Assembly: GCF_014904745.1 (NCBI RefSeq)
Contig: NZ_JACZCS010000011.1
Coordinates: 62,001 to 126,000, forward strand
Reading direction: 5' to 3'
DNA from: Oricola nitratireducens
GTDB lineage: Bacteria; Pseudomonadota; Alphaproteobacteria; Rhizobiales; Rhizobiaceae
DNA length: 64,000 nucleotides
Within the stretch, counting starts at the first letter, position 1; every line of letters begins with the position of its first letter. Positions 8,912-42,246 of the stretch are shown here, in pieces. The position numbers and the translations under genes are program-made. A model generated the notes under the pieces. That model worked only from the letters and a program-made list of their open reading frames with translations, searched no databases and was not told the origin of the DNA.

Positions 8912-10531
8912 TTACTCCGCCGCCGCCAGGCCGGCGTGGCCGCGGTTCTTCAGGAGCTTGAAGGTGATGGAATCCATCAGCGCCTCGAAGGAGGCGTCGA
9001 TGATGTTTTCCGACACGCCGACCGTCCACCAGCGCATGCCCGACGCGTCGGCGCTCTCGATCAACACGCGCGTCACCGCCTCGGTGCCGCCATTGAGGAT
9101 ACGCACCTTGTAGTCGACGAGTTCCAGGTCTGCGATCTCGGCCTGGTATTTGCCGAGATCCTTCCTGAGCGCCATGTCGAGCGCGTTGACCGGGCCGTTC
9201 GCGCTCTCGGCAACCGACATGCGTTCCTCGCCGTCGACGCTCACCTTCACGACCGCCTCGGCGACCGTGATCACCTTGCCGACGGCGTTGTGGCGGCGTT
9301 CCACCATCGAGCGGAACGAGACGACCTCGAAGAAGTCCGGCACCTCGCCGAGCGTGCGGCGCGCCAGGAGTTCGAAGCTCGCATCGGCGCCTTCATAGGC
9401 GTAGCCCGCCGCCTCGCGTTCCTTGACGATGGAGATCAGCGTGTCGAGACGCGGATCGTCCTTGGCAACGGTGACGCCGCGACGGTTCAATTCGGAGATG
9501 AAGTTCGACTTGCCGCCCTGGTCGGAGACCATGATGTGGCGGACATTGCCGACCTTTTCCGGCTCGACATGCTCGTAGGTCGCGGGATCCTTGGCGAGCG
9601 CCGAGGCATGAATGCCGGCCTTGGTGGCGAAGGCCGAGAGGCCGACATAGGGCGCCTGCGTGGCCGGGGACCGGTTCAGCAACTCGTCGAACCAGCGCGA
9701 GAGCCGCGTCAGGCCTTCCAACCTTTCGGCATCGATGCCGGTCTCGAAACGGCCGGCCCATGCCGGCTTCAGGGACAGCGTGCCGATCAGCGTGACGATG
9801 TTGGCGTTGCCGCAGCGCTCGCCGATGCCGTTCAGCGTGCCCTGGACCTGGCGCACGCCGGCGTCGATAGCGGCGAGCGAGTTGGCGACGGCCTGTTCGG
9901 TGTCGTTATGGGCATGGATGCCGAGCCGGTCGCCGGGCACGCCCGAGGCGATTACCGTGGAGACAATGTCGCGGACCTCGTGCGGCTGGGTGCCGCCATT
10001 GGTATCGCAGAGCACGATCCAGCGCGCGCCCGCGTCGAGCGCCGTCTTCGCGCAGGCGAGCGCGTAATCCGGATTGGCCTTGTAGCCGTCGAAGAAATGC
10101 TCGCAGTCGACCAGCGCCTCCTTGCCGGCGGCGACCGTCGCCTCGACCGACTGGCGGATCGATTCGAGGTTTTCCTCATTGGTGCAGCCGAGCGCGACAC
10201 GGACGTGATAATCCCAGCTCTTGGCGACATAGCAGACCGCGTCCGACTTCGAGGCGTTGAGCGCGGCGACGCCCGGATCGTTGGAGACCGAGACCCCGGC
10301 CCGCTTGGTCATGCCGAAGGCGACGAATTTGGCGTCCGCCGTGCGCTTGCGCTCGAAGAAGGCGGTGTCGGTCGGATTGGCGCCGGGATAGCCGCCCTCG
10401 ACGTAATCGATGCCGAATTCGTCCAGCATCCGGGCGATCGCGATCTTGTCCTCGACCGAAAAGTCGATGCCGGGCGTCTGCTGCCCGTCACGCAATGTCG
10501 TGTCGAAGAGATAGATGCGTTCGCGTGTCAT
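8912..10531 (-). CDS. cimA: (R)-citramalate synthase
   Basis: A 539-residue enzyme of the LeuA/DRE-TIM metallolyase group (TIGR00977) that condenses pyruvate with acetyl-CoA to (R)-citramalate, feeding isoleucine synthesis without threonine. The start shows DTTLRDGQQTPG (residues about 9-20), with the metal-binding Asp and the RDG catalytic signature, then GGYPGANPTD and the HAHNDTEQAVANS metal-binding His pair near residue 210. The C-terminal ~120 residues match the LeuA allosteric domain, so end-product feedback is expected. YxEGGYPGANP separates this family from isopropylmalate synthase. It stands alone, between rarD and proline iminopeptidase. Confidence 0.92.
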   Translation of the reverse strand: MTRERIYLFDTTLRDGQQTPGIDFSVEDKIAIARMLDEFGIDYVEGGYPGANPTDTAFFERKRTADAKFVAFGMTKRAGVSVSNDPGVAALNASKSDAVCYVAKSWDYHVRVALGCTNEENLESIRQSVEATVAAGKEALVDCEHFFDGYKANPDYALACAKTALDAGARWIVLCDTNGGTQPHEVRDIVSTVIASGVPGDRLGIHAHNDTEQAVANSLAAIDAGVRQVQGTLNGIGERCGNANIVTLIGTLSLKPAWAGRFETGIDAERLEGLTRLSRWFDELLNRSPATQAPYVGLSAFATKAGIHASALAKDPATYEHVEPEKVGNVRHIMVSDQGGKSNFISELNRRGVTVAKDDPRLDTLISIVKEREAAGYAYEGADASFELLARRTLGEVPDFFEVVSFRSMVERRHNAVGKVITVAEAVVKVSVDGEERMSVAESANGPVNALDMALRKDLGKYQAEIADLELVDYKVRILNGGTEAVTRVLIESADASGMRWWTVGVSENIIDASFEALMDSITFKLLKNRGHAGLAAAE

Positions 10532-12122: not shown

Positions 12123-12584
12123 TCAGGCCGGCGGCCAGACATCGGTGTCGCGATCCGGGTGCTGGTGGCTTTCGATGCCGGCCATGAATTCGGCGACCTC
12201 CGAATTGTCGGGCGCGCGGCGCACCGGCAGCGTGTGCAGCGCATCGACATAGGACAGCTTGTCGGCCGGATTGACCTGGATCTCCGGCGGCGCCAGTTCC
12301 GGGTCGTCGAGCGAGCCAATGGAGATTTCGACGTCGCCGCCCCAGTCATAGGCGAGCGGCGTGCCGCATTGCGCGCAGAAGCCGCGCCGGACCTTGTTGG
12401 ACGACTGGAACCAGGACGGCGCGCCGCGCGTCCATTCGAGTCCCTTCGCGGTCACCAGCGGGCCGTAGAACGCGCCGAAGGCCTTCTGGCACATGCGGCA
12501 ATGGCAGATCGAGGCACGCCCCAGTTCCTCGCAACGGTAGCGGACCGCGCCGCACTGGCAGCCGCCGGCGATTATGTCAGTCAT
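12123..12584 (-). CDS. GFA-family protein, copy 1
   Basis: A 153-residue protein of the GFA (CENP-V/GFA, Mss4-like) fold. It carries the zinc motifs CQCGAVRY, CHCRMCQKAFG and GFCAQCGTPLAY. Named from a glutathione-dependent formaldehyde-activating enzyme, but most members have no proven activity. The start is ATG 12584 with GGGAGG 6 nt upstream; it overlaps the end of GFA copy 2 by 8 nt (ATGACTGA), a sign of translational coupling. The C-terminus SHQHPDRDTDVWP recurs in the other two copies, showing they arose by tandem duplication. Confidence 0.9.
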   Translation of the reverse strand: MTDIIAGGCQCGAVRYRCEELGRASICHCRMCQKAFGAFYGPLVTAKGLEWTRGAPSWFQSSNKVRRGFCAQCGTPLAYDWGGDVEISIGSLDDPELAPPEIQVNPADKLSYVDALHTLPVRRAPDNSEVAEFMAGIESHQHPDRDTDVWPPA

Positions 12585-13134
12585 CTGCGTCCTCCCTCGG
12601 CCATACATCCGTATCGTGGTCGGGATGCTGGTGGTTGCTGTCCCGGATCGCCCTGATCTCGTCGGCGGAAAAATCGTCCCCGGTCACCTTCTGGCGCGTA
12701 CCGGCCCATTCGGCGACGAAAGGCAGCCGCGATTCCACCGAATCCTCCGAGACCGGCTTGTAGCGCGCCGGATCGTCGAGGCCGCCGAGGGTGACCAGCA
12801 GATGCCCGCTGTCAACCGGATCGAAGAACAGCGGCGTGCCGCAATCGCGGCAGAAGCCGCGCCGGACGATGTCGGAGGAATGGAACCAGCCGGGCTCGCC
12901 CCGGGTGACGACGATTTTCTCGCGCGGCGCGCCGGCGAGCGGCATGAAATAGTTACCCGCCGCCTTCTGGCACATGCGGCAGTGGCAGAGATGCGGATTG
13001 GTCAGCTCCGTCTCGACGCGATAGCGCACCGCGCCGCACTGGCAGCCGCCGGTGATGGCTCCACTCTCTCTCCCCTCTTGTGGGGGAGATGTCTGCGCCG
13101 CAGACAGAGGGGGGTCCTGGCTACGTCCGGTCAT
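12577..13134 (-). CDS. GFA-family protein, copy 2, with a repeat-derived N-terminus
   Basis: The GFA domain begins at GAITGGCQCGAVRY (about residue 25) and has CHCRMCQKAAGN and GFCRDCGTPLFF zinc motifs plus the HQHPDHDTDVWP tail. Residues 3-24, including DPPLSAAQTSPPQEG, are not GFA sequence: they are translated from a two-hairpin repeat. No ATG, GTG or TTG occurs in frame between the repeat and the domain, so the only usual start is ATG 13134, which sits inside the last codons of the DUF559 gene (14-nt overlap). Unless a rare start codon is used, the 185-residue product carries a foreign 24-residue leader. Confidence 0.82.
   Translation of the reverse strand: MTGRSQDPPLSAAQTSPPQEGRESGAITGGCQCGAVRYRVETELTNPHLCHCRMCQKAAGNYFMPLAGAPREKIVVTRGEPGWFHSSDIVRRGFCRDCGTPLFFDPVDSGHLLVTLGGLDDPARYKPVSEDSVESRLPFVAEWAGTRQKVTGDDFSADEIRAIRDSNHQHPDHDTDVWPREDADD
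13064..13116 (-). repeat. Two-hairpin repeat, left copy (A)
   Basis: Two adjacent stem-loops: CTCCCC/GGGGAG at 13070-13088 and TGTCTGC-GCC-GCAGACA at 13090-13106, with a C5 run at one end. Read on the minus strand the frame CCCCCTCTGTC...GACATCTCCCCC...CAAG...GGGGAGAG is the same as in copy B, but the second stem tip is different sequence with preserved pairing. It is in inverted orientation to copy B. Confidence 0.8.
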
Positions 13135-13507
13135 CGAATTCCTCCGGGCAGGCTACGGTCACGATATGCTGGCATACATTGTCGATATCCCTGAGAACAT
13201 CGTCATTCCAGAAGCGCAAGACCGTCCAGCCGTCTGATTCCAGCGTCTTCGTACGCGACAGGTCACGTGCCGCAGTTCCATCGTCCGCATGGTGCGAACC
13301 GTCGATCTCAACGATCAGACGACGCGCAGGACAGGCGAAGTCGGCAATGTAGTTGCGGATCGGATATTGGCGGCGAAATCCCAATCCCATCAGCCGATGC
13401 GCGCGGAGTTCGTGCCAGAGCTTGCGTTCCGCGTCGGTCATGTTCTTTCGCATGCGCTTCGCGTTGGCGCGATTCAGTGGCGGTACCGGAACGTGCGACT
13501 GCGTCAT
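13121..13507 (-). CDS. DUF559 endonuclease-fold protein
   Basis: A 128-residue protein of the DUF559 family, which has the Vsr/restriction-endonuclease fold. Seen are RMRKNMTDAERKLWHELR (helix that precedes the nuclease core), GLGFRRQYPIRNYIADFACP with its Asp, RRLIVEIDGSHH with the conserved Glu-x-Asp pair, and the late GWTVLRFWNDDVL strand. This is the arrangement of a PD-(D/E)xK active site. Function is unknown for the family. The start is taken at ATG 13507, where the G-run of repeat B serves as ribosome site 5 nt upstream; longer in-frame starts would translate the repeat. It separates GFA copies 2 and 3. Confidence 0.85.
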   Translation of the reverse strand: MTQSHVPVPPLNRANAKRMRKNMTDAERKLWHELRAHRLMGLGFRRQYPIRNYIADFACPARRLIVEIDGSHHADDGTAARDLSRTKTLESDGWTVLRFWNDDVLRDIDNVCQHIVTVACPEEFDDRT

Positions 13508-13511
13508 GAGT

Positions 13512-13557
13512 ACCCCCCTCTGTCCCTTCGGGACATCTCCCCCGCAAGGGGGGAGAG
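13512..13557 (+). repeat. Two-hairpin repeat, right copy (B)
   Basis: Stem-loops TGTCCC-TTC-GGGACA (13521-13535) and CTCCCCC/GGGGGAG (13537-13555), with a C6 run next to the DUF559 start. It matches copy A closely outside the second stem tip. The C-run ends of A and B both face the DUF559 gene, so A and B form terminal inverted repeats around it. Confidence 0.8.
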
Positions 13558-13583: not shown

Positions 13584-14051
13584 TCATTCGTCCGGCCAGA
13601 CATCCGTGTCACGGTCCGGGTGCTGGTAATTGACCAGCGTCTTCAGGAAATCGACGGCTTCGGCATCCTCGAGCGTGTGGCGCCCGGGGAGCGACGGGAT
13701 GGAATCGCAGAAGGAAAGCTTGCCCTCGACGCCATAGGCGATCGTCGGCGGGCAGGTTTCGGGATCGTCGAGCGCGACGACCGAAAGCGCCAGCCCGTCG
13801 GGCGCCTCGTAGGCGAGCGGCGTGCCGCAGGCCGAGCAGAAGCCGCGCCGCGCGGCGCTGGACGAGCGGAACCATGACGGCGCGCCGCGCGTCCACTCGA
13901 CGCGGTTGTCGCGTACCGAAACGAGGATCAGGGCGTGGCTCGCCGACGCCTTCTGGCACATCCGGCAATAGCAGACGGACGATTCCCCGGGTGCGCCGTG
14001 GATGCGGAACCGCACCGCGCCGCACTGGCAGCCGCCGGACAGTGACGTCAT
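13584..14051 (-). CDS. GFA-family protein, copy 3
   Basis: A 155-residue GFA-fold protein with CQCGAVRF, CYCRMCQKASA and GFCSACGTPLAY zinc motifs and the terminal NYQHPDRDTDVWPDE shared with copies 1 and 2. Start ATG 14051 is preceded by GAGGAGG about 8 nt upstream; an ORF extension to 14129 lacks a ribosome site and does not look like GFA sequence. It is the first gene of the minus-strand run copy 3, DUF559, copy 2, copy 1. The gap of 76 nt to the DUF559 start is occupied by repeat B. Confidence 0.9.
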   Translation of the reverse strand: MTSLSGGCQCGAVRFRIHGAPGESSVCYCRMCQKASASHALILVSVRDNRVEWTRGAPSWFRSSSAARRGFCSACGTPLAYEAPDGLALSVVALDDPETCPPTIAYGVEGKLSFCDSIPSLPGRHTLEDAEAVDFLKTLVNYQHPDRDTDVWPDE

Positions 14052-14193
14052 GGGCCGGCCTCCTCTCCATAATTCCTGTTTCCAATCGAATGGATTGGAT
14101 AGAACGCGCGGTAGGTCAACCGCGAACATACGGTTTCGCCCCGTCTCCTGACAGAAGACAGGCCCCGAAGGCGAATGCCCGCATGGCGAAGGC

Positions 14194-15010: not shown

Positions 15011-15064
15011 GTTTGTCGCTTCGCGACGACCCCCACCCTTCATCCCTCCCCACAAGGAGGAGGG
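15011..15064. repeat. Diverged two-hairpin repeat (C)
   Basis: Stem-loop GTCGC-TTC-GCGAC (15015-15027), a C-rich spacer, then TCCCTCC-CCACAA-GGAGGAGGGA type stem (15043-15065). The architecture is that of copies A and B, but the sequence is of a different subfamily. It lies in the gap between the hypothetical gene and cysS. Confidence 0.6.
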
Positions 15065-15134
15065 AAGACGCCGGCACCATCGCCTGCGCCTGGCACATCG
15101 CAGCGAGCAGATGTTCCGGAGCGCGGCGGCCGGC

Positions 15135-41907: not shown

Positions 41908-41989
41908 TCGCCGCTCCGGCCGATGTCGGCCTGACGTCAAATTTGGCCGCAACGGCGATTGTATCCGTGCGCGCCCTTGTCTACAGTTC

Positions 41990-42175
41990 GAGTCCCAGGT
42001 TCCATGAAGGCCAAGCCTTCTGGATTAAAAGGGAACACGGTAGGGACGACCCGAAGGGGGCCCGATCCGTGACTGCCCACGCAACTGTGAGCGTGAGCCG
42101 CATCCATTGTGCCACTGGGTTTGACCTGGGAAGGCGGGTGACGGCGTCGAAGCGCGAGTCAGGAGACCTGCCCGG
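41990..42175 (+). ncRNA. Cobalamin riboswitch
   Basis: The 5' leader holds the conserved B12-element parts in order: CAGGT (41996) pairing with ACCTG (42166-42170) as P1, GGGAACACGGT (42031), CGACCCGAAGGGGG, CCGTGACTGCCC, GCAACTGTGAGCG (from 42081), GCCACTGGG (42111), GGGAAGGCGGGTG (42128) and CGAGTCAGGAGACCTGCC (from 42155). It ends about 75 nt before the CbiM-like start. The intervening GC-rich hairpin around 42187-42212 may be the expression platform. It should repress the permease when adenosyl- or hydroxocobalamin is plentiful. Confidence 0.93.
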
Positions 42176-42246
42176 GAAAACCGCAATGGCGGCCGCTTTG
42201 GCGCGCCGCCCTCCAAATGCACGATGGGTGCAGGAAGGAACTGACC

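Follow-up and report, generated by a model that had tools for sequence, protein, structure and literature searches.

The DUF559 protein encoded in the window (the whole 64-kb stretch of DNA analysed here, G000:C25:62001-126000, inside a 4.93 Mb genome) probably acts as cognate enzyme for the two-hairpin repeats adjoining its gene, in an arrangement that resembles RAYT enzymes and their REP repeats and uses an unrelated enzyme. Such repeats are much commoner beside DUF559 genes than beside other genes, and branches of the enzyme tree match repeat families, so that DUF559 is a good candidate for the missing repeat-spreading enzyme. A preliminary description of this DNA had likened the nuclease and its neighbouring palindromes to RAYT/REP systems, and a tie between the two is strongly supported by flank counts, clade matching and genome co-occurrence. 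The observations comprise the association itself, clade-specific pairing of enzyme and repeat, genome co-occurrence, dispersed close pairs, site polymorphism and one block transfer.

The window locus and its nuclease

The DUF559 gene lies between two GFA-family genes, with one two-hairpin repeat on each side, the two copies being mutually inverted:

13064-13116, forward strand: repeat copy A, with outer hairpin 13066-13089, second hairpin 13090-13106 and tag GAGGGGGG at 13107-13114 facing the gene
13512-13557, reverse strand: repeat copy B, with tag 13513-13520 facing the gene, second hairpin 13521-13535 and outer hairpin 13536-13556
13121-13507, reverse strand: DUF559 (PF04480) nuclease gene, 128 aa, predicted EDxHD/Vsr-like fold
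12577-13134, reverse strand: GFA-family gene, whose homologous core begins near 13058 and whose upstream codons cross repeat A
13584-14129, reverse strand: second GFA-family gene, on the opposite side of the DUF559 gene

The two copies are inverted, share a frame and turn the same end toward the nuclease gene, just as first described. In both, the outer hairpin has the form CTCTCCCC..GGGGGAGA and the C-run/G-run tag, of the CCCCCTCTG type, points toward the gene; the second hairpin is TGTCTGCGCCGCAGACA in copy A versus TGTCCCTTCGGGACA in copy B. Repeat A also reads as N-terminal codons of the displaced GFA open reading frame, whose start now lies beyond the repeat. The G-run tag of copy B stops approximately 5 nt ahead of the DUF559 ATG and could act as a ribosome-binding site for the gene.

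A pattern search of the 64-kb window found no further full repeat copies besides A and B, and the exact repeat core occurred five times in the 4.93 Mb genome, compared with 0 for a reversed-pattern control. These five cores are A, B, a solo copy on contig C37 and a gene-less pair on contig C43 (L008), which is tags-inward like the window arms, with its members about 24 bp apart and no gene between them. The hairpins match no curated RNA family: at Rfam gathering thresholds, the sole hit in the window was a cobalamin riboswitch (41980-42189; RF00174, 110.8 bits). Separately, a degenerate related element, CCCCCACCCTTCATCCCTCCCC..GGAGGAGGGAAG, lies at 15030-15070 near a gene that we take to be cysS, and the congener G004 has a DUF559 unit at the corresponding place.

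The window protein matched DUF559 (PF04480) with an E-value of 2.3e-40 and 137.3 bits, against a curated cut-off of 20.6. Residues E15, D44, E55, D57, H61 and D70 were among those invariant across 34 aligned DUF559 domains including the window's, bearing out the claim that the enclosed 128-residue protein keeps the acidic site of an endonuclease fold; E15, D44, H61 and D70 presumably correspond to the letters of the EDxHD motif. A predicted model of the 105-residue domain had a pLDDT of 90.2, and its best fold match was the solved DUF559 relative 3hrl (47% identical), followed by the catalytic domain of the homing endonuclease I-Bth0305I (E 8.7e-5) and, more weakly, by Vsr (E 2.3e-2). The fold match together with the conserved acidic/histidine site predicts that the protein belongs to the EDxHD/Vsr-like nuclease fold. 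Pfam analysis (E 0.001) gave only DUF559 and MTES_1575 matches, with the RAYT Y1/HUH domain absent; the window enzyme is not a RAYT and has no Y1 domain. In the excerpted text of PMC3943268, EDxHD-type enzymes are described as metal-dependent hydrolytic nucleases, and a DUF559 gene of a cyanobacterial genome has already been placed in the EDxHD homing family (PMC9403480, in part).

In many aligned flanks of DUF559 genes, the layout was an outer hairpin (CTCTCCCC- or CTTCTCCCC-like), often a second hairpin, and then a gene-facing G-rich tag (GACAGAGGGGGG, GGATGAGGGG, GGGTGAGGGG or GGATGGGGG), and complete repeat pairs occurred on one or both sides at other DUF559 loci. Stem covariation was evaluated in 14 distinct 28-base RIME-type copies chosen among the matches listed, other lengths being excluded; "RIME-type" here is our label for a search pattern. 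In these 14 chosen copies, 94% of stem cells were paired and 8 had changed on both sides; of the 5 stem pairs, 3 included such a both-side change, a number that 23 of 500 shuffles equalled (their mean being 1.4), and the covariation score was 0.343 compared with 0.119 after shuffling (0/500). These compensatory changes agree with the earlier proposal, made from copies A and B, that pairing is kept despite sequence change.

Association of DUF559 genes with repeat families

The flank test scored matching inverted repeats between the left and right 220-bp flanks of a gene, with no sequence fixed beforehand. The first set consisted of 42 DUF559 loci from the genus and order, with 725 placements within those loci as controls; 26 of the 42 exceeded the control 99th percentile (30.8; control maximum, 39). 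The second set comprised 79 named loci from a scan of the whole collection, 77 of which were scorable (L113 and L120 being untestable), with L132 dropped for an N-run; two loci are common to both sets (L015 = L091, L025 = L097). The preliminary description had staked its idea on DUF559 genes being flanked by hairpins more often than other genes, and they are: 52 of 76 named loci scored at least 36, compared with 8 of 879 other open reading frames of those loci (p ~3e-58). A later set of family loci gave 12 of 28 at or above 36 (among these 28, L231 duplicates the L093 place, and the earlier-seen L174 and L168 are overlapped by L251 and by part of L230). None of 30 GFA genes of the same order, taken as controls, reached 36, the best scoring 32. 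Below the two-flank threshold were 24 of the 76 named and 16 of the 28 later loci. Passing loci came from alpha-, beta- and gammaproteobacteria, with single records named Planctomycetota, Anaerolineae and Geobacteraceae. The association between DUF559 genes and repeats is real and general.

Five repeat types, with patterns composed after the flank scans of the 42 and 79 loci, were sought within 330 bp of 123 DUF559 genes. A repeat type was present on some side of 87 genes, and the identical type flanked 51 on both sides. The phylogenetic tree contained 117 proteins, leaving out L132, L091 and L097 (the L015 and L025 places), and L094, L099 and L126 (stops or short reads), all six of which remain among the 123 genes of the repeat-type count. 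On this tree, which has few columns and many unresolved forks, the distribution of all types required 18 changes compared with 41 when shuffled (0/200). All 12 RIME-type loci, the window included, fell within one clade of 14 (support 93), requiring 1 change against a shuffled mean of 11.4 (0/500); the two members with none of the five types nearby were L028 and L130. The TGGGGTGGGG type (5 rows) showed no clustering on the tree.

The later loci gave a similar pattern, with RIME-type repeats at 10 of 10 RIME-clade genes and at 0 of 18 others, 9 of these 18 showing none of the five types. All 10, which include L251 and L230 with their overlap onto earlier-seen stretches, carried RIME repeats on one side only, with 0 of 10 bracketed. 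Over both sets, 9 of 24 RIME-clade genes were bracketed (the window among them), 13 had one-sided repeats and 2 had none of the five types, so that adjacency to a matching repeat is the general feature and bracketing is one form of it. Mesorhizobium mediterraneum, for instance, carries L085 (GATGAGG type) as well as L142 (RIME type); both types are likewise present in G003 and in G004. Because the same genera hold several clades, each with its own repeat, host relatedness alone is insufficient to account for the match. Repeat types follow the nuclease tree, and enzyme clade matches repeat family. On contig C6 of G003, two DUF559 genes of different clades (L010 and L017) lie approximately 2.6 kb apart.

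Genome co-occurrence was analysed in 151 genomes of the family, with a RIME-clade gene defined as scoring at least 150 bits with model A3, a cut-off set after the scores had been seen. All 33 clade-bearing genomes had the RIME pattern, as did 47 of the 118 clade-less ones; G373 and G396 (140-150 bits) were counted as clade-less, and excluding both gives 33 of 33 versus 46 of 116. Median RIME copy number was 26 with the clade, 2.5 in the 60 genomes with other DUF559 genes only, and 0 in the 58 without DUF559. Within genera that differ in gene presence, copy number with the gene was higher in 10 cases, lower in 1 and tied in 1 (p 0.012). Copies of the repeats far outnumber DUF559 genes in the same genomes, the highest RIME-type count being 312 (G408). 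Twenty clade-less genomes had at least 10 RIME copies, and G171 had 19 without any DUF559 gene. The GATGAGGG-type repeat occurred in 28 of 121 genomes of the order, of which 25 have DUF559 (p 4e-8; exceptions G010, G060 and G063), and in 29 genomes of the order DUF559 was present and the GATGAGGG type absent.

Pairs within 300 bp were counted among 127 RIME copies from the matches listed in seven genomes. Among these matches, 43 of 46 close pairs (within 300 bp, with no room for the DUF559 gene) were tags-outward, whereas the window gene lies between tags-inward arms. Spacing was near-constant in several genomes, at 124 in G142 and G208, 144 in G373 and 82-86 in 5 of 7 pairs in G413, and was more variable in G165. 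Regularity of this kind is characteristic of a defined bipartite element.

Movement and residence of the unit

Movement of hairpin, gene and hairpin as one block is supported by sequence comparison of one same-genus pair. L011 and L015 come from two species of the window genus, and the only long DNA shared by their 3.3-kb loci is a 610-bp hairpin-gene-hairpin block, which is 86% identical, includes both hairpins and stands at unrelated sites. The right edge of the L015 block lies within a few bases of where homology to five congeners starts, and its left flank gave no long match in those five. The neighbour of L011 is a cysS-like gene, which we take to be cysS, and the window has no such unit there. 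No target-site duplication was established.

One intergenic site was traced through 146 genomes of a single genus, which the 100% match of G230 to the M. ciceri locus L083 indicates to be Mesorhizobium. In eleven genomes, G230 among them, the query aligned over its full length as a single piece containing the DUF559 unit. Among 20 further genomes examined, L224 also retains a portion of the gene, the site in L209 and L210 is approximately 80 bp with a lone hairpin only, seven genomes have a tags-inward RIME-type pair, and L218 and L220-L223 have a tags-inward GATGAGG-type pair. In a single case at an orthologous Mesorhizobium site, the whole hairpin-DUF559 unit of L099 is inverted relative to the flanking genes when compared with L081 and L083.

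RIME-clade DUF559 genes were found near GFA genes at 11 of 24 loci, compared with 3 of 127 other loci, which suggests a mostly vertical gene and makes long residence with losses at the window site as likely as a recent insertion there. Loci L162 and L163 (G132 and G191, of two other genera) have the GFA relatives directly joined with no unit between; as proof of an insertion in the window lineage they are weakened, because loss in those genera fits equally well given the GFA adjacency. In G001 (L161/L013), the orthologous GFA gene has a different DUF559 gene upstream of it, accompanied by other repeats; the domain that this gene encodes is 43% identical to that of the window.

The interpretation first given is supported in part, through the tie of nuclease to palindromes and the L011/L015 block; that the window copy is itself a minimal mobile unit is a conjecture. 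Counting against a simple mobile unit are the bracketing of only 9 of 24 members of the window's own clade, the proximity of 11 of 24 to GFA genes, which makes the clade look old or vertical, the existence of many repeat-bearing genomes without the clade, and the mostly opposite polarity of close RIME pairs elsewhere (43 of 46, among the matches listed).

Downstream of the E. coli gene ycjD (L078, 3001-3700), itself a DUF559 gene, lie a CCCCTCTGGGGAGAGGGTTAGGGTGAGGGG repeat and an incomplete second copy of the 3' end of ycjD. A sapF-ycjD-fabI query had a place covering at least 80% of it in 3362 of 5426 genomes; we rejected this locus as an empty-site test, since two genomes examined among the non-matching ones hold efflux genes there and the case is not a clean insertion. 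The DUF559 gene at L088 (~9,985-10,365) shares 93% identity with the L085 gene and stands at an unrelated site with no hairpins, beside a 16-bp direct repeat copying the gene's own 3' end; this too is a single case.

Proposed mechanism, alternatives and known systems

For binding, cutting and the copying of DNA, we infer the following. Each DUF559 clade would work with its own repeat family, the window's clade with RIME-type repeats. The nuclease would recognise the hairpin-plus-tag when extruded or single-stranded and cut at the G-run tag; host repair would then copy the element into the break, or shift an excised repeat pair to a new site. Repeats would spread mostly as gene-less pairs, with the whole hairpin-gene-hairpin block moving occasionally. 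We know of no strand joining by EDxHD-type hydrolytic nucleases, and spread would need host repair because hydrolytic nucleases cannot join strands alone.

An unlikely alternative casts DUF559 genes as mobile genes of the homing type, inserted at or next to existing repeats, which would be landing pads moved by another enzyme. A near fold neighbour is indeed a homing endonuclease, RIME repeats persist in genomes without the clade, RIME-clade genes often have repeats on one side only, the hairpin-free gene of L088 matches that of L085 at 93% identity from a site unrelated to it, and a congener has a different DUF559 gene (L013, 43% identical) upstream of the orthologous GFA gene. This account nevertheless leaves unexplained why one clade keeps one repeat family across genera and why the repeat is never missing where the clade is present, usually in more copies than in clade-less congeners; L011 and L015, moreover, have both hairpins as well as the gene in common at unrelated sites.

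We regard as improbable that DUF559 is a host repair nuclease of the Vsr kind, comparable to Caulobacter VsrA, whose link to repeats is a by-product, for example of hairpin processing that keeps it nearby. Fold similarity to Vsr, the frequent stay of the RIME-clade gene near GFA genes, and a DNA-damage response that depends on a DUF559 protein (PMC12907096, in the text available) fit this reading, yet a general repair enzyme needs no adjacent copies of one lineage-specific repeat and would not vary in presence among congeners. It is very improbable that the hairpins, rather than being substrates, serve the nuclease gene as terminators, RNA-stability elements or leader regulators: one copy is upstream and the other downstream of the gene, and the G-run of the window tag ends about 5 nt ahead of the ATG in the manner of a ribosome-binding site, but up to 312 repeat copies per genome far exceed the number of DUF559 genes, and many repeats are close pairs with near-constant spacing.

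With DUF559 as the probable cognate enzyme of its repeats, comparison with known systems begins with the RAYT transposases and their REP and REPIN repeats. RAYTs are HUH/Y1 tyrosine enzymes, unlike the EDxHD/Vsr-like DUF559 nuclease, and instead of GTAG, the tags here are of CCCCTCTG, CCCTCATCC or CCCTCACCC types. As in REPtrons, outlined in part in PMC3733652, a small gene stands beside its own palindromic repeats, inverted pairs are dispersed, enzyme lineages have their own repeat families, and repeats also occur where the gene is missing. The same source, as excerpted, describes CGTC-tagged REPs as abundant in Alphaproteobacteria, mostly paired and apparently without a dedicated transposase (Di Nocera et al. 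2013, PMC3733652). The repeats studied here are like these in abundance in Alphaproteobacteria, in being mostly paired and in having no dedicated transposase reported; they differ in being two-hairpin with a C-rich tag, where GTAG and CGTC REPs have an unpaired tag next to one stem, and the CGTC stem rule given in that excerpt (AT at first and second positions) is absent from the copies examined. Some GATGAGGG-type copies carry CGTC next to the second hairpin, so that a distant link between CGTC REPs and these repeats is conceivable.

RIME elements were reportedly described in Rhizobium by Osteras and colleagues in 1995, and we take the window repeat to resemble one arm of such an element; both are intergenic rhizobial elements. 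In the consulted part of PMC2573895, RIMEs and comparable repeats are listed as sequences whose function is unknown; unlike RIMEs as described there, the repeats here are accompanied by a nuclease clade. I-Bth0305I, an EDxHD homing endonuclease, has the nearest fold after the solved DUF559 relative. Homing enzymes reside in introns or inteins or are free-standing, with long target sites (PMC3943268, in excerpt), whereas the DUF559 genes here adjoin repeat families. Caulobacter VsrA has the same DUF559 domain and is read, in the sections of PMC12907096 available, as mismatch repair linked to cytosine methylation, the DNA-damage response depending on VsrA when the cytosine methylase is missing. 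The string "palindrom" has 0 occurrences in the main text of that paper, and neither its available sections nor those of PMC9403480 tie DUF559 to repeats. Titles and partial texts of open-licence PMC papers gave no earlier DUF559-repeat link, including under COG2852, Vsr, RIME, REP/RAYT and EDxHD/I-Bth0305I, and none of the titles listed for papers that contain the repeat letters dealt with repeats of this sort. A repeat-cutting role would be an alternative reading of VsrA.

More broadly, and tentatively, EDxHD (DUF559) lineages could form a widespread, unrecognised class of repeat-spreading enzymes, each with its own two-hairpin families, acting through cutting and host repair with no transposase strand transfer; we place this extension a little short of an even chance. 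The repeat families concerned are the RIME, CCCTCATCC, CCCTCACCC and CCCCATCC types, and the lineages occur in alpha-, beta- and gammaproteobacteria, with a small number of records from other phyla. In some Alphaproteobacteria, such short palindromes reach hundreds of copies. If the match between clade and repeat holds, RIME-like and CCCTCAYCC repeats gain a candidate enzyme, a common protein without known function gains a role, and the question becomes testable in laboratory rhizobia or, through ycjD, in E. coli K-12. Should the work be done by a hydrolytic nuclease, the RAYT outcome would have been reached twice, by independent routes.
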